A DNA stretch of 62,969 nt from Acidobacteria bacterium Ga0077522 (GTDB lineage: Bacteria > Acidobacteriota > Vicinamibacteria > Vicinamibacterales > Vicinamibacteraceae): assembly GCA_001464065.1 (NCBI GenBank), contig LNDN01000013.1, positions 1-62,969 on the forward strand, given 5' to 3'. Below the pieces are notes generated by a model, which saw only the letters and a program-made list of their open reading frames with translations, did no database searches and was not told the DNA's origin. Numbering within the stretch: the first letter of the stretch is position 1; each line of letters begins with the position of its first letter. Positions 5,363 through 56,375 of the stretch are shown here, piece by piece. The translations under genes and the position numbers were made by a program.

Positions 5363-6304
5363 TCAGAACGGGCACGAGCCCCCGAACGCCTCGACGTAGC
5401 GCTCGCGGAACTCGTCGTGACTGTAGGCGTGGCTCTGGCCGCCCACGTGCTCGAGGCAGTAGGTGGCCGCCACGCTGCCCAGCCGTCCGGCGGTCTCCCA
5501 ATCGGCGCCCAGGGCGAGCCCCTTCATGAGGCCGCCGCGGTAGGCGTCGCCGACGCCAGTGGGATCGGCGATGCGGCGCTCCGGCGCCACGGGCACGTCG
5601 ATGCGGCGCCCCTCGAGATGGATCGAGGACCCCTTCTCTCCCCGCGTGATGATCACGGCTTCGGACTTGTCGAGGAGGGCATCGACGTCGAGGCCGGTCT
5701 TCTCGCGAATCAGCTCGTACTCGTAGTCGTTGCAGATCACGATGTTGGCGCCGACGAGGCCGGCGGCCAGCTCGGGGCCATCCATCCGCGCGCACTGCTG
5801 GCCGGGGTCGAAGATATAGCGCAGCCCGAGCGCACGGCACTCCTCGGCGTACTGCACCATCGCCTTCGGGTCATTGGGCGAGATGATCACGAGGTCGGCC
5901 GCGCCGGCCGTGCGAAACGACAACTCGTCGGCCGAGGCCATCGCCCCGGTGTAGAACGACGCGATCTGGTTGTTCTGCGTGTCCGTGCTGCAGAAGAACG
6001 AGGCCGTGAACTTGTCGGCGACCTCGTGCACCAGCGACGTGTCGACGTTGGCGGCCTCGAGCCAGGCCCGATAGTCCGAGAAGTCCTGGCCCGCCGTCCC
6101 CATCAGCACCGGCCGCTCGCCGAGCAGGGCGAGCGTGTAGGCGATGTTCGGCGCGCATCCGCCGCGCCGCTTCTCCATCTCGTCGACGAGAAAACTGAGG
6201 CTCAGACGCTGCAGGTGCTCGGGGAGCAGCAGTTCGGTGAACATTCCGGGGAACGTCATGAGGTAGTCGAAGGCGATGGAGCCGGTGACGATGTGGCGTG
6301 GCAT
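5363..6304 (-). CDS. PfkB-family carbohydrate/nucleoside kinase
   Basis: Ribokinase/PfkB-fold kinase, 313 residues. The N-terminal GSIAFDYLMTFPG start, KRRGGCAPNIAYTLALLG (the substrate-binding GG region) and the C-terminal DPTGVGDAYRGG, with the catalytic Asp and anion hole, define the family. The layout is closest to adenosine-kinase-like members; directly upstream lies MTA phosphorylase, which releases adenine and methylthioribose phosphate, so a salvage role is reasonable but unproved. The ATG (6302-6304) is preceded within 6 bp by a 70-bp heptamer array that leaves no purine-rich ribosome binding site. Confidence 0.88.
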   Translation of the reverse strand: MPRHIVTGSIAFDYLMTFPGMFTELLLPEHLQRLSLSFLVDEMEKRRGGCAPNIAYTLALLGERPVLMGTAGQDFSDYRAWLEAANVDTSLVHEVADKFTASFFCSTDTQNNQIASFYTGAMASADELSFRTAGAADLVIISPNDPKAMVQYAEECRALGLRYIFDPGQQCARMDGPELAAGLVGANIVICNDYEYELIREKTGLDVDALLDKSEAVIITRGEKGSSIHLEGRRIDVPVAPERRIADPTGVGDAYRGGLMKGLALGADWETAGRLGSVAATYCLEHVGGQSHAYSHDEFRERYVEAFGGSCPF

Positions 6305-6310
6305 GGGGTA

Positions 6311-6380
6311 GGGAAACGGGAACCGGGAATCGGGAATCGGGAATCGGGAATCGGGAGTCGGGAGTCGGGAGTCGGGAGTC
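6311..6380. repeat. Perfect-period heptamer array, 10 units
   Basis: Ten uninterrupted 7-bp units: GGGAAAC, GGGAACC, four GGGAATC, four GGGAGTC. Sequence changes occur in blocks, as expected from slippage spreading variants. The array ends 6 bp before the PfkB start codon and 40 bp after the MTA phosphorylase stop. Confidence 0.97.
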
Positions 6381-6420
6381 GGCCAGCGGCGGAGGCACGA
6401 AGGCCGAACGACGACCGACG

Positions 6421-7287
6421 TCAGGAATCGAGGTACTTGCCCATGATCGGCGCCAGCTTCTGGCGCGTCTCCTCGGGCACGATGTCCGGGCGCGTGATGA
6501 TGGCCGTCGCGAGTGCCTGGCCGCAGCCGCACGTGCGGGGCGCCGCCGCGAGGGTCGCGACGGCACCGGCGATGACCTGCTGTGCCGTCCGGGCGTTCTG
6601 GGTCAGGTTGGCGATGACCATCTCCACGGTGACGTGGTCGTGGTCCGGATGCCAGCAGTCGTAGTCGGTGACCAGCGCGATGGTGGCGTAGCAGATTTCG
6701 GCCTCGCGCGCGAGCTTGGCCTCCTGCAGATTCGTCATGCCGATGATGTGCGCGCCCCAGGAGCGGTACAGGTGCGACTCGGCGCGCGTCGAGAACGCCG
6801 GCCCCTCCATGCAGACGTAGGTGCCGCCCTTGTGGACCCGGGCGCCGGCCTGCACCGCGGACTCGTAGGCCACCTGGGCGAGATGACCGCAGACGGGATC
6901 GGCAAAGGCGATGTGACCGACGAGGCCGTCACCGAAGAAGGTCCCGATGCGGCCGCGCGTGCGGTCGATGAACTGGTCGGGGATCACCAGGTCGAGCGGG
7001 GCCAGGTCCTCGCGCAGCGATCCGACGGCGCTGGCCGACAGCAGGCGCTGCACGCCGAGCGTCTTGAACCCGTAGATGTTGGCCCGGAAGTTCAGCTCCG
7101 ACGGGGTCAGTCGATGCCCCACCCCATGTCGCGCCAGGAACGCGACACGAGTGCCGGCCAGGGTGCCCGTCACGTAGGGGCCCGAGGGCGCGCCGAAGGG
7201 CGTATCGATGGAGATCTCGTGCCGGTCGGTGAGCTCGGCCATGTCGTACAGGCCGCTGCCGCCGATGATGCCAATCTGGATGGACAT
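6421..7287 (-). CDS. mtnP: S-methyl-5'-thioadenosine phosphorylase
   Basis: Purine nucleoside phosphorylase family, 288 residues. It cleaves methylthioadenosine with phosphate to adenine and methylthioribose-1-phosphate in methionine salvage and polyamine recycling. Signatures are [11 protein letters not shown] at the N-terminus (phosphate loop), [21 protein letters not shown], and [17 protein letters not shown] with the substrate-contacting Met and Glu. FSTRAE and [13 protein letters not shown] are typical of MTAP and not of inosine-specific PNP. The start is ATG at 7285-7287 ([10 protein letters not shown]). Confidence 0.94.
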
Positions 7288-7407: not shown

Positions 7408-8355
7408 TCAGCGCCCCTCGAGCAGGCGTGCGGTCAGCGCGCGTGCCGCAGCGTGGGCGTCGATCTCGCGGGCGGCCACGCGGTCGATCAGCGCCTCGAA
7501 TCCCCCGGGGCCCAGCGCCTCCCGTTCCAGATGGCCCCAGACCTGCCGCAGGGCCAGGTCGCGCACGCGGGCCGCGGCACGTTGGCGACGACGGGTCTCG
7601 ACGAGGGGGGCCGTGCGGGCCAGGAACGCCTCGGTGGCGTCGATCACCGCCTCGACCCCGGCGCCACTGGTGGCCTCGGTCCGGAGCACGGGCGGTCGCC
7701 ACGCCTCGGCGGCGACCGGTTGCAGCGACAGCAGCCCGTCGATGGCCGCCGCCGCCCGATCGGCACCGTCGCGGTCGGCCTTGTTGACCACATAGATGTC
7801 GGCAATCTCCATGAGGCCGGCCTTGAGCGCCTGCACGTCGTCGCCCATCCCCGGGACCACGACCACGAGGGAGACGTCGGCGGTGCGGACGATCTCGACT
7901 TCGTCCTGCCCGACGCCGACCGTCTCGACGATCACGAGGTCGTAGCCCGCCGCCTCGAGCACGATGGCGGCATCGGCCGTCGTTCGCGCCAGGCCGCCGA
8001 GATGGCCGCGGGTGGCCATGCTGCGGATGAACACGCCGCCGTCGCCCGCGTGCTGCATGCGGACGCGGTCTCCCAGCAGGGCCCCGCCGGTGAAGGGACT
8101 GGTCGGATCGACGGCGAGGATCGCGACGCGCCGCTGGCGTGCGCACCAGCCCAGGGCGAGGCGGTCGACGAGCGTGCTCTTGCCGGCGCCGGGCGCCCCG
8201 GTGAGTCCGACGATGGCGCCGTGCCCGGTGTGGGGGTACAACGCGCCGACGAGGGCGCTGGCCTGCGGTGTCTCGTCCTCGACCACGGACAGGGCACGCG
8301 CGAGCGCCCGCGGCTCGCCGGCGCGGACGCGTGCGGCGAGTGCCTCGATGGTCAT
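7408..8355 (-). CDS. meaB: MeaB/ArgK-type G3E GTPase (B12 mutase chaperone)
   Basis: SIMIBI-class G3E GTPase, 315 residues. Walker A is [12 protein letters not shown] (about residues 53-64). [19 protein letters not shown], the switch region [13 protein letters not shown] and the NKAD specificity motif ([10 protein letters not shown]) are all in place. MeaB-type GTPases gate B12 delivery to acyl-CoA mutases and protect them. The only mutase in the window is the split enzyme at 42164-44291, so that is a candidate partner; its active site looks like isobutyryl-CoA mutase. The ATG overlaps the stop of the upstream acyl-CoA dehydrogenase, so the two are co-translated. Confidence 0.93.
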
Positions 8356-9491
8356 GCCAGCAACTGCCGGGCGATGACGAGCCGCTGCACCTCGCTCGTG
8401 CCTTCGCCGATGGTGAGCAGCTTGACGTCGCGGAAGTACTTCTCCGCCGGGTAGTCCTTCACGAAGCCGTAGCCCCCGTGAATCTGCACGCACTCCTCGG
8501 CGGCGCGGACGGCCACCTCGCTCGCGTACAACTTGGCCATCGACGACTCGCGGGTGGTGCGCACGCCCTCGTCCTTGAGGGCGGCGGCCCGATACGTCAG
8601 CAGGCGCGCGGCCGCGATCCGGGTCGCCAGATCGGCGAGCTTCCAGCGAATGCCCTGGAACGACGCGATGGGCTGGCCGAACTGCTCGCGCTGCAGCGCG
8701 TACGCCCGAGCCGCCTCCCACGCCCCCTGCGCCAGGCCGACCGACAGGGCCGCGATGCCGATGCGCCCCGCATCGAGCACCTGCAGCGTGTTGATGAACC
8801 CCTGACCTTCCTCGCCGAGCAGTGCGTCGGCCGGCACCCGGCAGCTCTCGAAGATGACCTCGCTGGTCTCGCTGGCGCGCATGCCGAGTTTGTTCTCCTT
8901 GCGCCCGGCACGCATGCCGGGCGTGCCGGCTTCCACCACGAACGCCGAGATGCCCCGATTGCCGCGCGAGCGGTCGGTGACCGCCATCGCCACCAGCACG
9001 CCGGCGATGTTGCCGTGCGTGATGAAGGTCTTGGCCCCGTCGATGACCCAGCCCGCCTCGTCGCGACGGGCCACGGTGCGGGTCCCCGCGGCGTCGCTGC
9101 CGGCCGTCGGTTCGGTCAGGCCCCACGCCCCGAGGACCTGCCCTGTGGCCAGTGGCACGAGGAACCGCTGCTGCTGTGCCGGAGTGCCGAACATGTGGAG
9201 GTGGGCGGCGGCGAGCCCGTTGTGCGCCGCGACGCTCAGCGCGATCGCGGGATCGACGCGCGCCAGTTCCTCGATGCAGAGACAGTAGTCGACGGCCGAC
9301 ATGCCTGCCCCGCCCACCGCTTCCGGAAACTGAATCCCCATCAGGCCGAGGTCGGCCAGCGCGGGCAACAGCGTCATCGGGAAGTGCTGCGCCTCGTCCC
9401 AGGTCATGACGTGGGGCCGGATCTCGCGCTCCGCGAACTCGCGGACGCTGTCGCGCAACAACCGCTGGTCGTCGGTGAGGTGCAGGTCCAT
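8352..9491 (-). CDS. Acyl-CoA dehydrogenase (catalytic Glu present)
   Basis: FAD-dependent acyl-CoA dehydrogenase, 379 residues, normal length. [21 protein letters not shown] (flavin and substrate contacts), HGNIAG and the C-terminal IGEGTSEVQ place the general base at Glu363, the position used by short- and medium-chain enzymes. The chain [20 protein letters not shown] is typical of short/branched-chain members. It oxidises an acyl-CoA to the 2-enoyl-CoA and passes electrons to ETF. Overlap with meaB suggests a role in branched-chain or odd-chain acyl degradation. It starts 21 bp from the divergent beta-barrel gene. Confidence 0.93.
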
Positions 9492-9512
9492 GGCGTTCTT
9501 GCATAATGCCCC

Positions 9513-9998
9513 ATGCCGTCCGCTGCGCGTCGCGCCCTGCTCGTTCTCCTCCTGCTGCTCGGCTCGTCCTGGCCCGCGCGGGCAGACCTGACCATCTTCG
9601 CCGGCTTGCAGAACGCGCCGGCCATCCGGCCGACGACCGGGATCGGACTCGGCTTCGGTCTGCTGATTGTCGGGTGGGAGGTCGAGATTGCCCGGACGAG
9701 CGAACGCCTCGAGGATCTGGCGCCGTCGATCGCCTCGGGGACGGGCAGCGTCTACGTGCAGAACCCGGTGCCCATCAACGGCGTGCAGTTCTATGCCATT
9801 GCCGGCGCGGGACTCTACCGCGAACGCCTGGACGTGGCCTCCCAGCAGACCGACGTGCATGTCGCGGTGGGGGGTGGCGCCAAGATCTCGCTGGCGGGTC
9901 CGCTGAAGCTGCGCCTCGACTACAGGATCTTCAAGCTGCGCGACGCACGGTCGCCCAATCCCCAGCGGCTCTCAGCCGGCCTGACGCTCGCCTTCTAG
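9513..9998 (+). CDS. Small secreted outer-membrane beta-barrel-like protein
   Basis: 161 residues. Residues 1-24 are a signal peptide with a Leu-rich core ending at ARADL. The mature part alternates hydrophobic and polar residues with many aromatics and Gly ([57 protein letters not shown]) and ends in a C-terminal Phe, as expected for an eight-strand OmpA/OmpW-type barrel. No specific family is recognised. Divergent from the acyl-CoA dehydrogenase and convergent with the next gene. Confidence 0.75.
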
Positions 9999-41015: not shown

Positions 41016-42089
41016 TCACGCGGGGGCCACGCCGAGCGTGCGGAGGCGCACCAGGTTGTAGGCCGCGGCCGCGAAGGTCACCTGCCAATCGACCAAGCGG
41101 CCCCCGCGATGCTTCACCTGGCGCAGTCCGCCGACCGTCTTCATCCAGCCAAACACTTGCTCGACCAGCTTGCGTTTGCGCTGACTCACGGCGTACCCGG
41201 GATGTCGCGTCGTCCGACCGTCGATCGCGCTGTAGCGCACCTTGGCGGCCACATGCGCGGTAATGCCACGCGCCCGCAGCGGCGCGACAAACGGGCCCTG
41301 GTCGTAGCCCTTGTCCGCGCCGACGGTACAGCCCGGCCGCACGGTCGCCTGCACCAGCAGGACGCCGGCCTCGGCCTCCGCGGTGCCGGTGGCGTGGGTC
41401 GCACAGACGTTGCGCACCAGGCCATGCCGATTGTCGAGCAGGACGTGCGCGTAGTAGCCCAGCACCGCGGCCTGCCCATCGCCTTTGCGCGCCAAGCGCG
41501 CGTCGGGATCCGTGGTGGATCGATGCGTCTCGTTGCGGCGCCGCTGCCCGCGGAAGTCCACGTCGGTGTTGCTGCCGCCGCCCGGCGCGGGCGGCTCCTC
41601 GCCGATCGGCTTCACGCTCTTGTGGCTCGCCCACGCCTGCAGCAGCGAGCCATCGACCGTGAAGTGCTCGTCCGACAGCAGCCCGGCCGTCTCGGCCTGG
41701 CGGGCCACGGCATCGAAGAAGCGCGCCGCGATCTCGCCCTCAAGCAGCCGTGCGCGATTCTTGGTGAACGTGGTCGGCACCCAGAGGTCGGCGTCCATCG
41801 CCAGGCCGACGAACCAGCGAAACAGCAGGTTGTACTCCAGCTGCTCGATCAGCATCCGCTCACTGCGAATCGAGTACAGCACCTGCAGCAGCAAGGCGCG
41901 CAGCAGCTGCTCGGGTGGCACCGACGGCCGGCCCGCACGCGAGTACAGCGCGTCGAGCGCCGGCCCCAGCTCGCGCAGCGCGGCGTCGGTCATGCGACGA
42001 ATCGCCCGCAGCGGATGGTCGGCCGGCACCCGCTGCTCGGGCGAGAGGTAGCTGAAGAGATGACCGCTCTGCTCGTCGTCGCCACGCAT
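41016..42089 (-). CDS. IS5-family DDE transposase
   Basis: 357 residues, intact. The N-terminal InsH/DUF772 domain (RAIRRMTDAALRELGPALDA, SVPPEQLLRALLLQVLYSIR) is followed by the DDE core: first Asp in EHFTVDGSLLQAWASHKS, second in CTVGADKGYDQG, and Glu in KLVEQVFGWMKTVGGLRQVK. It cuts and pastes the surrounding element. All catalytic residues are present, so the copy may be active. Overlapping frames inside the element look like shadows. Confidence 0.95.
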   Translation of the reverse strand: MRGDDEQSGHLFSYLSPEQRVPADHPLRAIRRMTDAALRELGPALDALYSRAGRPSVPPEQLLRALLLQVLYSIRSERMLIEQLEYNLLFRWFVGLAMDADLWVPTTFTKNRARLLEGEIAARFFDAVARQAETAGLLSDEHFTVDGSLLQAWASHKSVKPIGEEPPAPGGGSNTDVDFRGQRRRNETHRSTTDPDARLARKGDGQAAVLGYYAHVLLDNRHGLVRNVCATHATGTAEAEAGVLLVQATVRPGCTVGADKGYDQGPFVAPLRARGITAHVAAKVRYSAIDGRTTRHPGYAVSQRKRKLVEQVFGWMKTVGGLRQVKHRGGRLVDWQVTFAAAAYNLVRLRTLGVAPA

Positions 42090-46420: not shown

Positions 46421-46582
46421 GCGTGAGAGTGATGATAGCATCACGATTCGAGGCACTTCCGGTGCGGGATTGCTCCCTTTTGACGCCCCGCCGTGCCCTC
46501 GCGGTCGGCTCGCTCACGCGCAGTCGCCCCCCGGCGTCGACGGGCCGCCCCCGGCCATCCGCCCCCTCGCAAGGACGCTCCA

Positions 46583-47749
46583 GTGACCACGCCCGCTGTG
46601 ACCCTGCCTGACGCCCTGACCACCCTCACCGAGGACGAACGCCTGCTCCGGCAGAGCGTCCGTGAGTACGCCGCACAGGAACTCGCGCCGCGGGCGCGCG
46701 CCATGGACGAGGCCGCGCGGATGGACCCGGCGCTGGTCTCCAGCCTGTTTGCGATGGGGCTGATGGGCATCGAGGTGCCCGAGCGCCTCGGCGGCCAGGG
46801 CGGCACCTTCTTCCACTCCGTGCTCGTCGTCGAAGAGCTGTCGCGAGTGGATCCGTCGGTGGGCGTGCTGGTGGACGTCCAGAACACCCTCGTCATCAAC
46901 GCCCTGCTCCGCTGGGCCAGCGACGACCAGCAGCGCGAATGGCTCCCGCGGCTGGCGGGCGAGGCCATCGGCGCCTACGCGCTCTCGGAGGCCGGCTCGG
47001 GCAGCGACGCCTTCGCCCTCACCACGCGGGCGGTGCGCGACTCCGACAGCTACGTGCTCGACGGCCGCAAGCTCTGGATCACCAATGGCGCCGAGGCGTC
47101 GCTCTTCATCGTGTTCGCCACCGTGGATCCGGCCGCCGGCTATCGCGGCATCACGGCCTTCCTGGTGCCACGGGAGACGCCGGGCCTTGCCGTCGGCAAG
47201 AAGGAAGACAAGCTCGGCATCCGCGCCAGCAGCACCTGCGAGCTCGTCTTCGAGTCGTGCCGCGTGCCCGCCTCGCACGTCCTCGGCGACGTCGGCAAGG
47301 GCTACAAGGTCGCCATCGAAACGCTGAACGAGGGACGCATCGGCATCGGCGCCCAGATGCTCGGGCTGGCGCAGGGCGCGCTCGACCATGCGGTGCGATA
47401 CACGAAGACACGCACGCAGTTCGGCAAGGCCATCGCCGACTTCCAGGGCGTCCAGTTCCAGTTGGCCCGCGCGGCGATGGAGGTCGAGAGCACGCGGCTG
47501 CTCGTGTACAACGCGGCGCGCTTGCGCGATGCGAAGCTGCCCTTCCTCACCGAGGCCGCGATGTGCAAGCTGCAGGCCTCCGAGGTGGCCGAGCGCACCG
47601 CCTCGCTGGCCATCAATCTGTTCGGGGGCTACGGCTTCGTGAAGGACGCGCCGGTCGAGAAGCTGTATCGGGACGCCAAGATCGGGCAGATCTACGAGGG
47701 GACGTCGAACCTGCAGTTGCAGACGATTGCCCGGGCGCTGCTGGCATGA
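46583..47749 (+). CDS. Acyl-CoA dehydrogenase (catalytic Glu present)
   Basis: 388 residues, GTG start with AAGGA 5 bp upstream. AYALSEAGSGSDAFAL, WITNGAEASLFIVFAT and the C-terminal IYEGTSNLQLQTIAR (Glu372) match short/branched-chain acyl-CoA dehydrogenases. ITAFLVPRETPGL and KLGIRASSTCELVFE are typical. It feeds electrons to ETF. Divergent from the VWFA gene and coupled (ATGA) to a DUF5829-like gene. With the mutase nearby, a role in butyryl/isobutyryl or valine-derived acyl-CoA oxidation is plausible. Confidence 0.93.
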   Translation: MTTPAVTLPDALTTLTEDERLLRQSVREYAAQELAPRARAMDEAARMDPALVSSLFAMGLMGIEVPERLGGQGGTFFHSVLVVEELSRVDPSVGVLVDVQNTLVINALLRWASDDQQREWLPRLAGEAIGAYALSEAGSGSDAFALTTRAVRDSDSYVLDGRKLWITNGAEASLFIVFATVDPAAGYRGITAFLVPRETPGLAVGKKEDKLGIRASSTCELVFESCRVPASHVLGDVGKGYKVAIETLNEGRIGIGAQMLGLAQGALDHAVRYTKTRTQFGKAIADFQGVQFQLARAAMEVESTRLLVYNAARLRDAKLPFLTEAAMCKLQASEVAERTASLAINLFGGYGFVKDAPVEKLYRDAKIGQIYEGTSNLQLQTIARALLA

Positions 47750-51713: not shown

Positions 51714-51734
51714 GGTCTCAGGTCTCAGGTCTCA
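51714..51734. repeat. GGTCTCA x3 heptamers
   Basis: Three exact units. The GNAT stop codon (51725-51727) is inside the middle unit, and the repeats encode its last residues. Confidence 0.85.
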
Positions 51735-52552
51735 AGGCTGGCCATGACGAGGCGACTGTAGAGTGGCACGAACCCGCGGCGCTGGACGTTGGCCTGCGAG
51801 CGCGATCCCGGCTCCACGGTGACGACGGCGAGATCGCACCGCTCGGCGCGCGCCTCTTTCAGGCGGGCCGAGAGCAGCGCCGACTGCACGCCACGGCGCC
51901 GGTGCGTCGGCAGCGTCGCGGCGCCGCAGAACTGATAGATGCCCTCGTCGACGCGGGCCGAGGCCGCGCCGGCCGGCACGCCGTGCAGGTGCGCCACGTA
52001 CCGCCGCACGTCTCCGACACCGGCGAACTGCTCGACCACCATCTCGAGCGCGCTGGTGTCGTAGTGCTCGGCGGGAGCCTCGCGCCCGTCCACGGTCTCG
52101 GCGGCGGCGAACCCCTCCACCGAGATGCGGGCCCACTCTGCCTCGGGACCGCGGGTCACGGTCAGGCCATCGGGCAGCACCTGTGGCAACAGCGCGCCGA
52201 TCTCGCATCCGAGCACCATCTCGACGCGCTGCAGGCGGTAGCCGCGCGCCTCGAGCCGGCGCACCGAGTCGACGTCGGCGAGCGTGGAGAGCTCCCATCC
52301 CGGGCGCTCGTCGAACGGCGCGTACGCGCGCTCGATGGCATCGATGTTCTCGTCGGTGAGGGGCTCGGCGATCGCCACGCCGATCACCTTGGTCATCGGG
52401 GAGCCCGGGCCGCAGTAGACGGCCGCGCCGGCCCCGACGCGCAGGCCGAACGCGGCGGTGCGTCCGGACCTCTGCGTCACGTCGGCCATCGCGAGGCTCA
52501 GTCGTGTTTCTGCGGCCTCGATGCGCCTCGCCAGCGCAATCGTGCCGATCAC
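51725..52552 (-). CDS. GNAT-family N-acetyltransferase
   Basis: 275 residues. The acetyl-CoA loop is in AATLPTHRRRGVQSALLSAR (RRxGxG/A type), followed by VTVEPGSRSQANVQRRGFVP with the conserved Asn. The N-terminal 130 residues (VIGVAIAEPLTDENIDAIER, LADVDSVRRLEARGYRLQRV) suggest a second, degenerate GNAT lobe. Substrate unknown. The GTG start overlaps the dehydrogenase stop (GTGA). The C-terminus SLET and the stop are formed by GGTCTCA repeats. Confidence 0.87.
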   Translation of the reverse strand: MIGTIALARRIEAAETRLSLAMADVTQRSGRTAAFGLRVGAGAAVYCGPGSPMTKVIGVAIAEPLTDENIDAIERAYAPFDERPGWELSTLADVDSVRRLEARGYRLQRVEMVLGCEIGALLPQVLPDGLTVTRGPEAEWARISVEGFAAAETVDGREAPAEHYDTSALEMVVEQFAGVGDVRRYVAHLHGVPAGAASARVDEGIYQFCGAATLPTHRRRGVQSALLSARLKEARAERCDLAVVTVEPGSRSQANVQRRGFVPLYSRLVMASLET

Positions 52553-53688
52553 CCGAGCACCGCGTCGGCGATGATCATGCGCTGGACTTCGGACGTCCCC
52601 TGGTAGATTTCCGTGGCTCGCACGTCGCGGAACAGGCGTTCGACGGTCGACCCACGGCGATAGCCTTCCGAGGCGAGAATCTGCATCGCGCGATCGGCAG
52701 CCGCGTGCGCCGCCTCGGACGCCGCCAGCTTCGCCATCGACGCCTCGAGGGTGCCGCGCAGCCCGCGCGCGCGTGTCGTGGCGGCCTGCCAGGTGAGCAT
52801 CCGGGCGGCCTCGAGCCCGGTCGCCATGTCGGCGAGCATGAACTGGATGGCCTGGTACTGGGCGATGGGCTGGCCGAACGCCACGCGCCGCTTCGCGTAG
52901 CCGAGGGCTTCCTGGAGGGCGGCTTCGCCGACGCCGAGGGCCTGCGCGGCAATCGCCACGCGCCCGCCATCGAGCGCCTCCATCGCGATGCCGAAACCCT
53001 GGCCCGGCTGGCCAATCAGCTGACTGGCATCGACGAACACATCGTCGAGCCGCAGGTCCATGCAGCCGAGACCGCGTACGCCGAGCGAGTCCGTGCGGTT
53101 GCGTCGCACCAGTCCCGGCGCGTCCATCGGGAGCAGGAACGCCGAGATGCCGCGAGCGCGCAGGTCGGGCCGCGTGGCGGCGAACACGATGGCGACATCG
53201 GCCGCCTCTGCGTTGGCGACCCAGACCTTGCTGCCGCGCAGGCGATATCCGACACCATCGGCGGTGGCCGTGGTCTGCTGGTTCGCGGCGTCGGAGCCCG
53301 CCTGCTCCTCCGACAAGGCAAAGGCGCCGATGGCCTCGCCGCGCGCCAGGCGACGCAGCCACTGGTCGCGCTGCGCGTCGGTGCCGTGCCGCAGCAGGGT
53401 CTCGGCGACCAGGGAGTTGTTCACCGAGAGGATGACCGCCACGGTGGCGCTGGCGTGTGCCACCGCTTCGAGCGCGAGCACATACGCGACGTCGTCTTCC
53501 CCGGCCCCTCCCCACGCCTCGGGGAGGGTCACGCCCATCAGGCCCAGCGTGCCGGCCTGCGCGATGAGGTCGCGCGGGAAGGCGCCCTGCTCATCGATCG
53601 CGGCGGCACGCGGCGCGACATGCTCGGCCGCGAACTGCCGGGCGCGCGCCGCGAAGGCGTGCTGTCGTTCGGTGGGCTGGACCTTCAC
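52549..53688 (-). CDS. Acyl-CoA dehydrogenase with catalytic Glu replaced by Gln
   Basis: 379 residues with normal flavin-binding blocks (FALSEEQAGSDAAN, VANAEAADVAIVF, YAKRRVAFGQPIAQYQA). At the site where the other two dehydrogenases in the window have IGEGTS or IYEGTS, this one reads EIYQGTSEVQRMIIA, so the base would be Gln363. The alternative helix-G Glu used by isovaleryl-type enzymes is not apparent (EALDGGRVAIAAQ). It may be inactive as a standard dehydrogenase, or act on a pre-acidified or different substrate. The CAG codon is unambiguous in this sequence. Coupled to a GNAT. Confidence 0.9.
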   Translation of the reverse strand: MKVQPTERQHAFAARARQFAAEHVAPRAAAIDEQGAFPRDLIAQAGTLGLMGVTLPEAWGGAGEDDVAYVLALEAVAHASATVAVILSVNNSLVAETLLRHGTDAQRDQWLRRLARGEAIGAFALSEEQAGSDAANQQTTATADGVGYRLRGSKVWVANAEAADVAIVFAATRPDLRARGISAFLLPMDAPGLVRRNRTDSLGVRGLGCMDLRLDDVFVDASQLIGQPGQGFGIAMEALDGGRVAIAAQALGVGEAALQEALGYAKRRVAFGQPIAQYQAIQFMLADMATGLEAARMLTWQAATTRARGLRGTLEASMAKLAASEAAHAAADRAMQILASEGYRRGSTVERLFRDVRATEIYQGTSEVQRMIIADAVLG

Positions 53689-53700
53689 GCCCGTAGGCTA

Positions 53701-54204
53701 TCAGAGGGCGGCGGTGGCGGCGTCGGCGAAGAGGGGACGCAGGCGCAGCGCGGTGGCCTCGAGGGCCTCCGGCAACACGCGGGTCTCACCGACGGTGGTC
53801 ATGAAGTTGGTGTCGCCGTTCCAGCGTGGCAGCAGGTGGATGTGCAGATGATCGGCCACCCCCGCGCCAGCCGCCCGGCCGATGTTGATGCCGACGTTGA
53901 TGCCGTGCGGCTGATAGGCCGCCCGCAGCACGATCTCGGCGCGCTGGGTCAGCTGCATCAGTTCGTGCAGCTCCTCGGGCGTCGCCTCGGCCAGAGTCGC
54001 GATGTGGCGCCCCGGCACGACCATCAGATGGCCGTTGTTGTAGGGGAACAGATTGAGGATGACGTAGCAGGTGGTGCCGCGCTGGACGATGAGCGAGGCC
54101 TGGCCGGCGTCGGCACCGGCATCGGCCGTGCAGAACACACACCCCGGCGGGGCGTGACCGGCGGTCACGTACTGCAGGCGCCAGGGAGACCAGAGATGAT
54201 CCAT
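53701..54204 (-). CDS. HIT-family nucleotide hydrolase
   Basis: 167 residues. The HIT motif is DHLHIHLLPRW, and the N-terminal half has the CxxC pair (GCVFCTA) of zinc-containing HIT proteins such as Ap4A phosphorylase-like enzymes; LNLFPYNNGHLMVVPGRHIA is the usual substrate strand. It acts on adenosine or dinucleoside polyphosphates in the cytoplasm. The ATG at 54202-54204 is 4 bp after the HU stop; an in-frame GTG lies just upstream. Fairly long for a HIT protein, with an Ala-rich tail. Confidence 0.9.
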   Translation of the reverse strand: MDHLWSPWRLQYVTAGHAPPGCVFCTADAGADAGQASLIVQRGTTCYVILNLFPYNNGHLMVVPGRHIATLAEATPEELHELMQLTQRAEIVLRAAYQPHGINVGINIGRAAGAGVADHLHIHLLPRWNGDTNFMTTVGETRVLPEALEATALRLRPLFADAATAAL

Positions 54205-54208
54205 CACC

Positions 54209-54544
54209 TCAGGACGCGACCGGCGCGGGGTCGGCCTCGGGCAGGACGATCTCGGCGTCGGTGCCTGCGCTGGCGTTGATGATGTCCTTCAGTTCCTTGC
54301 CCGGCTTGAAGTAGGGCACGTGCTTGGAGGGCACGTCCACACGGTCGCCGGTCTTCGGATTGCGGCCCTTGCGGGGCTCGCGACGACGCAGGCGGAAACT
54401 GCCGAAGCCCCTGAGCTCGACCTTGTCGCCCGCGTGGAGGGCACGGATGACCGACAGGAAGACCGTCTCGACGATGAGCTCGGCGTCCTTCTTGGTGAGT
54501 TCCGAGACGCGGGAGACCTCTTCGACGAGATCCGCCTTGGTCAT
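54209..54544 (-). CDS. HU/IHF-family DNA-binding protein
   Basis: 111 residues. The N-terminal helices MTKADLVEEVSRVSELTKKD and the beta-arm signature GFGSFRLRRREPRKGRNPKTG are unmistakable; the arm tip and VPYFKPGKELKD follow. It bends DNA as a dimer. A 15-residue acidic/Pro tail extends past the usual 90-95. KGRNPKTGDRVDVP looks closer to IHF-alpha-like than HU proteins. It sits behind the rpsA terminator and precedes the HIT gene. Confidence 0.93.
   Translation of the reverse strand: MTKADLVEEVSRVSELTKKDAELIVETVFLSVIRALHAGDKVELRGFGSFRLRRREPRKGRNPKTGDRVDVPSKHVPYFKPGKELKDIINASAGTDAEIVLPEADPAPVAS

Positions 54545-54608: not shown

Positions 54609-56375
<1,767 letters not shown>

Follow-up and report, generated by a model that had tools for sequence, protein, structure and literature searches.

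In this report, we describe Q-ACAD, a full-length acyl-CoA dehydrogenase (ACAD) homologue from Acidobacteria bacterium Ga0077522 in which the catalytic Glu is missing and which, judged from its sequence, very probably has no dehydrogenase activity. The fold is certainly that of the acyl-CoA dehydrogenase superfamily. The family is carried by a single lineage of Acidobacteria from soil and water (the order of the window), and the full-length protein and its closest shortened relatives are under purifying selection. There is about an even chance that Q-ACAD is a pseudo-acyl-CoA dehydrogenase working by protein-protein contact, possibly within an active dehydrogenase as one of its subunits. The window, the whole stretch of DNA that was analysed, comprises 62,969 nucleotides of contig LNDN01000013.1, and its relevant features are collected in Table 1. 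The strand of the gene was absent from the first-pass annotation; the open reading frame runs from 53688 to 52549.

Table 1. Positions in the window of Q-ACAD, the codons discussed in the text, and the neighbouring genes
Feature	Position	Strand	Remarks
Q-ACAD, full-length acyl-CoA dehydrogenase homologue without catalytic Glu	52549..53688	minus	379 aa, GTG start
Gln363 codon CAG, place of the catalytic Glu	52600..52602 (read 52602-52600)	minus	corresponds to SCAD precursor Glu392
Ala158 codon	53215..53217	minus	corresponds to SCAD Thr187; Thr in most active relatives
Ala339-Ser340 codons	52669..52674	minus	Gly-Gly of FAD loop in most relatives
Gly242 codon, helix G	52963..52965	minus	place of the base in IVD/LCAD-type enzymes
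E-ACAD, ACADSB-like dehydrogenase, intact Glu	46583..47749 (ORF from 46493)	plus	candidate partner
GNAT gene, directly downstream of Q-ACAD	51725..52534	minus	start codon uncertain
HIT-domain gene, directly upstream of Q-ACAD	53701..54207	minus	12 bp from Q-ACAD
HU/IHF-type gene	54209..54544	minus	conserved block; start taken as Met of MTKADL
Ribosomal protein S1 gene	54609..56375	minus	conserved block

The N-terminal, middle, and C-terminal ACAD domains of Q-ACAD were all found to score above the Pfam cut-offs. The best sequence match in the PDB is human SCAD (E = 5e-99; 44-45% identity), and the alignment with the SCAD precursor is gapless, residue n of Q-ACAD being paired with SCAD residue n + 29 and Gln363 with Glu392, which we take to be the catalytic base. 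The predicted model (pLDDT 94) superimposes on rat SCAD (1jqi) with a Z score of 58.9 and an rmsd of 1.3 Å over 379 residues. Q-ACAD is thus like SCAD in its whole fold and in most residues of the FAD site, but the catalytic Glu, Thr187, and Gly368-Gly369 are replaced, and an acidic residue on the ETF side is lost. The roles of the FAD-site residues in Q-ACAD were assigned by homology. In the tree, the Q family forms one clade (SH-aLRT 100, stem 0.65) that is not sister to the family of the neighbouring dehydrogenase, E-ACAD. Viral contigs gave five distant or partial matches.

The motif of Q-ACAD reads DVRATEIYQGTSEVQR, with its core at 52608-52595. The first-pass annotation had placed Gln at the catalytic base, with Glu in the two other dehydrogenases of the window and no alternative Glu in helix G, and all of this was confirmed. 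The other two dehydrogenases lie at 46493-47749 on the plus strand (IYEGTSNLQL) and at 8352-9860 on the minus strand. Helix G of Q-ACAD reads AMEALDGGRVAIAAQALG, with Gly242 where enzymes of the IVD/LCAD type have Glu. Position 242 is Gly, and helix G is free of Glu there, in 45 of 45 aligned rows of the Q family (the window gene is present twice), which rules out an alternative base at this helix. In another ACAD of the same genome, at locus L005, the base position is taken by Val (LYVGTSEIQR) and helix G supplies a Glu (MEAERL), an arrangement like that of IVD and LCAD.

Residue 363 was compared in loci from a scan of GTDB genomes (80 loci), the bacterium's own genome, and five genomes of its family. 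Gln was found in 45 of 45 loci at identities of at least 63%; the next relatives, down at 48% identity, carry Glu. At E 1e-110, an orthologue was found in 71 of 193 genomes of the class, all of them in the window's order, and all 71 were compared; this set overlaps the GTDB loci, so that the counts are not additive, and most of the genomes in the analysis are metagenome bins. Residue 363 is Gln in 65 orthologues, Ala in four, and Pro in two. Orthologues with Glu, which according to the first-pass annotation would have suggested a recent mutation or an error, number 0 of 71. Together with the 45 Gln-bearing loci, this rules out a sequencing error, a recent mutation, or a one-off event. The four Ala copies come from four genomes of one genus, and the two Pro copies from different families. 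Because these three groups stand apart in the tree, Gln was probably left three times (codons CCC, CCG, and GCC), and never toward Glu, although Glu is only one base from a Gln codon. The Ala and Pro variants weaken Gln-specific chemistry as a rule for the family. Where the earlier annotation suggested that the protein "may catalyse something else" or be a partner, the loss of normal dehydrogenation and a partner or other role are well supported, but the Gln itself is not the point. A DNA pattern for [I/L]-Y-Q-G-T-x-E-x-Q, so strict that it would pass over divergent forms and did pass over some of the orthologues, matched 19 of 396 genomes in the phylum, each time at the Q-ACAD locus (rows tallied by eye), and none of the 354 genomes outside the order.

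The flavin site is altered as well. Residue 158, at the place of SCAD Thr187, presumably a flavin contact, is Ala in 69 of the 71 orthologues and Ser or Thr in one each, versus Thr in 85 of 89 comparison rows. Ala339, usually Gly, is present in 70 of 71 and Ser340 in 68 of 71. W156, F271, D332, E360, and T365 are kept in every orthologue, and R268 and Q336 in 66 each; of these, W156, R268, F271, Q336, and T365 belong to the flavin site. The residues specific to the family include S80, A158, S201, C209, H328, D332, A339, and G346, as determined by comparing 45 Q rows (window gene twice, L048 omitted for length) with 30 E-ACAD rows (window gene twice) and 59 others; among them C209 (70/71), D332 (71/71), and H328 (66/71) are nearly fixed. 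Position 199 is Glu in 66 of the 89 comparison rows versus one of the 71 orthologues; this acidic position probably lies at or adjoining Glu212 of MCAD, near the place of ETF docking. The ETF-docking Glu212 of MCAD is described as important (PMC11153573). The genome contains a gene for ETF alpha.

Normal dehydrogenation with some other carboxylate serving as the base would be in keeping with the fold and with the FAD-site residues, most of which are those of SCAD. We consider this very unlikely. Of the features needed for SCAD-type competence, Glu is present neither in the J-K loop (0 of 71) nor in helix G, residue 240 varies among Asp, Glu, and Gln, the Thr at the flavin is gone in all but two orthologues, and the acidic residue on the ETF side is lost.

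Q-ACAD is found in a conserved block, S1-HU-HIT-Q-ACAD, which is followed by E-ACAD on the opposite strand and a VWA gene, with methylmalonyl-CoA mutase where it is in view. The HIT gene and Q-ACAD are probably co-transcribed. A transposase-looking reading frame, recognized by eye, adjoins the block at 41016-42089 on the minus strand. Several families lack Q-ACAD although its neighbours are intact there, so it is dispensable. The stretch beside E-ACAD was inspected in a hand-picked sample of 45 of the 122 class genomes without a Q match. The first reading, that the slot is empty in genomes lacking Q-ACAD, was overturned: an ACAD-like reading frame was found there in 16 of the 45 genomes. One (G062) is a full-length divergent copy with Gln (IQQGTADVQR). 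In two intermediates of 322-339 residues (G129 and G134), the middle part is eroded and Ala stands at the base position. The other 13 are mini-ACADs with lengths of about 204-250 residues, G151 having an uncertain start. A further ten genomes have HIT and E-ACAD with no ACAD reading frame between them, one has a Q-ACAD fragment at a contig end, and the remaining 18, with HIT out of view, allowed no judgement of the slot.

Nine of the 15 eroded reading frames (G062 apart) were submitted to Pfam. The C-terminal domain scored above the cut-off in all nine, the middle, flavin-binding domain was detected in none of the nine, and the N-terminal domain was below the cut-off wherever it was seen. Eight of the minis stop just short of the catalytic loop. 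The HMM of the Q family scored best for 14 of the 16 slot reading frames, with one virtual tie (68.0 versus 67.9). Residues specific to the Q family recur in them, namely S80 (10/12), G254 (14/16), G346 (12/15), and D332 (6/16), compared with 1, 7, 0, and 2 occurrences, respectively, in the 89 comparison rows. A tree of the C-terminal domain placed the Q family and 13 of the 16 slot reading frames on one side of a branch with a support of 99 (G151, G118, and G114 omitted); the alternative grouping of the slot reading frames with E-ACAD was not rejected by the AU test (p 0.135). In a reverse search from one mini, the minis topped the list, followed mostly by Q loci. The slot reading frames mostly lack H328 (0/16) and A339 (1/16), so the minis could have split off early, and their function is not necessarily that of the full-length protein. 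The same reverse search also listed mini-like reading frames in G121, G137, G140, G144, and G154. Eroded ACAD-like reading frames of about 204-339 residues adjoin E-ACAD at L172-L174, L197-L205, L215, L216, and L235.

The dN/dS ratios were determined by the method of Nei and Gojobori, a simple pairwise method applied here at high G+C. For Q-ACAD, the values were about 0.05-0.22 (0.048-0.217) in 20 same-genus pairs, and for E-ACAD in the same pairs 0.032-0.220. Among 31 pairs of minis and intermediates, the ratios were 0.073-0.125 in six pairs among G114, G115, G118, and G120, 0.22-0.25 in four other close pairs, and as high as 0.51 in distant pairs, where dS was high. If the gene were dying and functionless, this would explain its erosion in steps, from Gln through Ala or Pro to minis and empty slots, and the single in-frame stop found in three of the 71 orthologues. 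We give this explanation hardly any credence, since the ratios in the full-length pairs and in the six closest mini pairs are low and 68 of the 71 copies are free of stops.

What selection keeps across the family is unlikely to be flavin catalysis, because the base is gone, the flavin site is altered, the flavin domain is unrecognizable in a related branch, and selection nonetheless persists. Counting against a pseudoenzyme is the retention of many flavin-site residues together with the near fixation of new ones, as if the pocket still mattered. The full-length protein could instead be a flavoenzyme with Glu-free chemistry, for example, an elimination from an activated acyl-CoA, and the minis a side branch that lost it. 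This would suit the new residues of the pocket region (A158, C209, and D332 nearly fixed, Q363 in most copies) and the mostly retained FAD site, and an ACAD-fold desulfinase is known. The structure of that enzyme, 3-sulfinopropionyl-CoA desulfinase (5af7), resembles Q-ACAD in having the ACAD fold with Glu at neither base position, but it has Gly at the place of residue 363 and Gln in helix G, whereas Q-ACAD has the reverse. Q-ACAD fell short of the curated scores of two models, reaching 257.6 of 600 bits with the desulfinase model NF042439, and 359.8 of 640 bits with NF042972 for the acryloyl-CoA reductase AcrC. Abandoned catalysis is favoured over a new chemistry that requires Gln, because the base position is also Ala or Pro (six of 71) and the slot has relatives without a detectable flavin domain; the Ala variants are also altered at Y362 and Q336. 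Glu-free chemistry is thus a doubtful explanation.

The reading that we prefer, a pseudoenzyme acting through protein contact, has parallels in known systems. The heterodimers of steroid ACADs have Glu in only one subunit each, and the base-less half of CasC is needed for FAD (PMC8399759; PMC11153573). The ChsE, IpdE2, and Scd subunits and the N-terminal half of CasC are, like Q-ACAD, base-less chains of ACAD fold beside Glu-bearing ACADs (PMC8399759). These subunits belong to another branch than the SCAD-like Q-ACAD, which scored 45.6 bits of 450 with the IpdE2 model. Unlike them, Q-ACAD mostly lies in convergent orientation to its neighbour, and a split FAD site was not observed. Forms without a flavin domain were not met among the steroid ACAD and CasC systems in the portions of the literature compared. 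A literature search, weak in that it mostly excluded subscription papers, returned no report of the Q-ACAD family or of ACADs lacking the middle domain.

By analogy with the mycobacterial ChsE4-ChsE5 and ChsE1-ChsE2, Q-ACAD might be the base-less subunit of an alpha2beta2 ACAD in which E-ACAD would provide Glu and the isoalloxazine contacts and Q-ACAD the ADP-side contacts to FAD. One chain without the catalytic Glu does lie beside one with it. E-ACAD, whose closest relative in the PDB is human ACADSB, was found in 64 of the 71 Q genomes and on the same contig in 51 pairs, 50 of them within 15 kb (the other at 2.46 Mb) and three in tandem. Q-ACAD mostly keeps R268, F271, and Q336 but has lost its base and its Thr, a pattern that such a subunit should show (PMC8399759; PMC11153573). 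However, 47 of the 51 pairs are convergent and therefore not one operon, and E-ACAD is present in 158 of the 193 class genomes, far beyond the range of Q-ACAD. E-ACAD retains its own FAD contacts (R, F, and Q at 268, 271, and 279 in 30 of 30 rows), so that the split site, a Glu chain without ADP-side contacts, is not observed. The idea of complementary loss, which came from an Asn at the 336 place of E-ACAD, was dropped because this Asn occurs both with and without Q-ACAD in the genome. In the minis, F271 is gone as well, and so in most cases is Q336. The correlation of the Q and E trees was -0.05 given S1 (n = 15, p 0.63) and 0.22 given HIT; it rose to 0.56 only given HU (n = 26), which does not discriminate as a control because every pair tested was significant with HU alone. 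We regard the alpha2beta2 arrangement as improbable, and it is likewise unlikely that the neighbouring E-ACAD, a candidate, is the partner of Q-ACAD. The strongest correlation was that of Q-ACAD with HIT (partial 0.82 given S1, n = 20, p 0.001; 0.72 in a larger set), which may reflect a functional link or the shared inheritance of neighbours as a block.

If Q-ACAD is a pseudoenzyme, it would not catalyze the alpha,beta-dehydrogenation of acyl-CoA, and the full-length form might still hold FAD as a structural cofactor. The C-terminal domain of ACADs builds the core of the oligomer. The selected function would reside in the helical regions, above all in the C-terminal domain, and would be exerted through protein-protein contact, a role to which we assign roughly equal chances of being right and wrong. 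Most likely, Q-ACAD would then be a structural or regulatory subunit that assembles together with an active ACAD. ACAD9, an assembly factor of complex I, resembles Q-ACAD as an ACAD with a structural job; it is of the VLCAD type and keeps its Glu. A fuller account is somewhat less likely than not: an ACAD lineage of one bacterial order would have turned stepwise into a pseudoenzyme family, with loss of the base throughout, replacement by Ala or Pro in places, loss of the flavin domain in one branch, and a helical mini-ACAD of 200-250 residues still under selection. The family would then be a subunit dedicated to a structural or regulatory task, in a beta-oxidation enzyme or some other complex, and would need no flavin.

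As a rule, pseudoenzymes are encountered at a single end point; the Q-ACAD locus shows a series across related genomes. With the neighbours conserved, full-length base-less, further eroded, and middle-domain-less forms and empty slots are found, all without Glu, and this natural series allows one to ask which part of a flavoenzyme survives the loss of catalysis. It is also a warning that naming by homology could label all of these forms as active dehydrogenases. Elsewhere in the window, at about 6300-6500, a repetitive coding-like stretch with RESGIGNRESGVGSR repeats in one frame was noticed by eye; it is probably an intergenic repeat.
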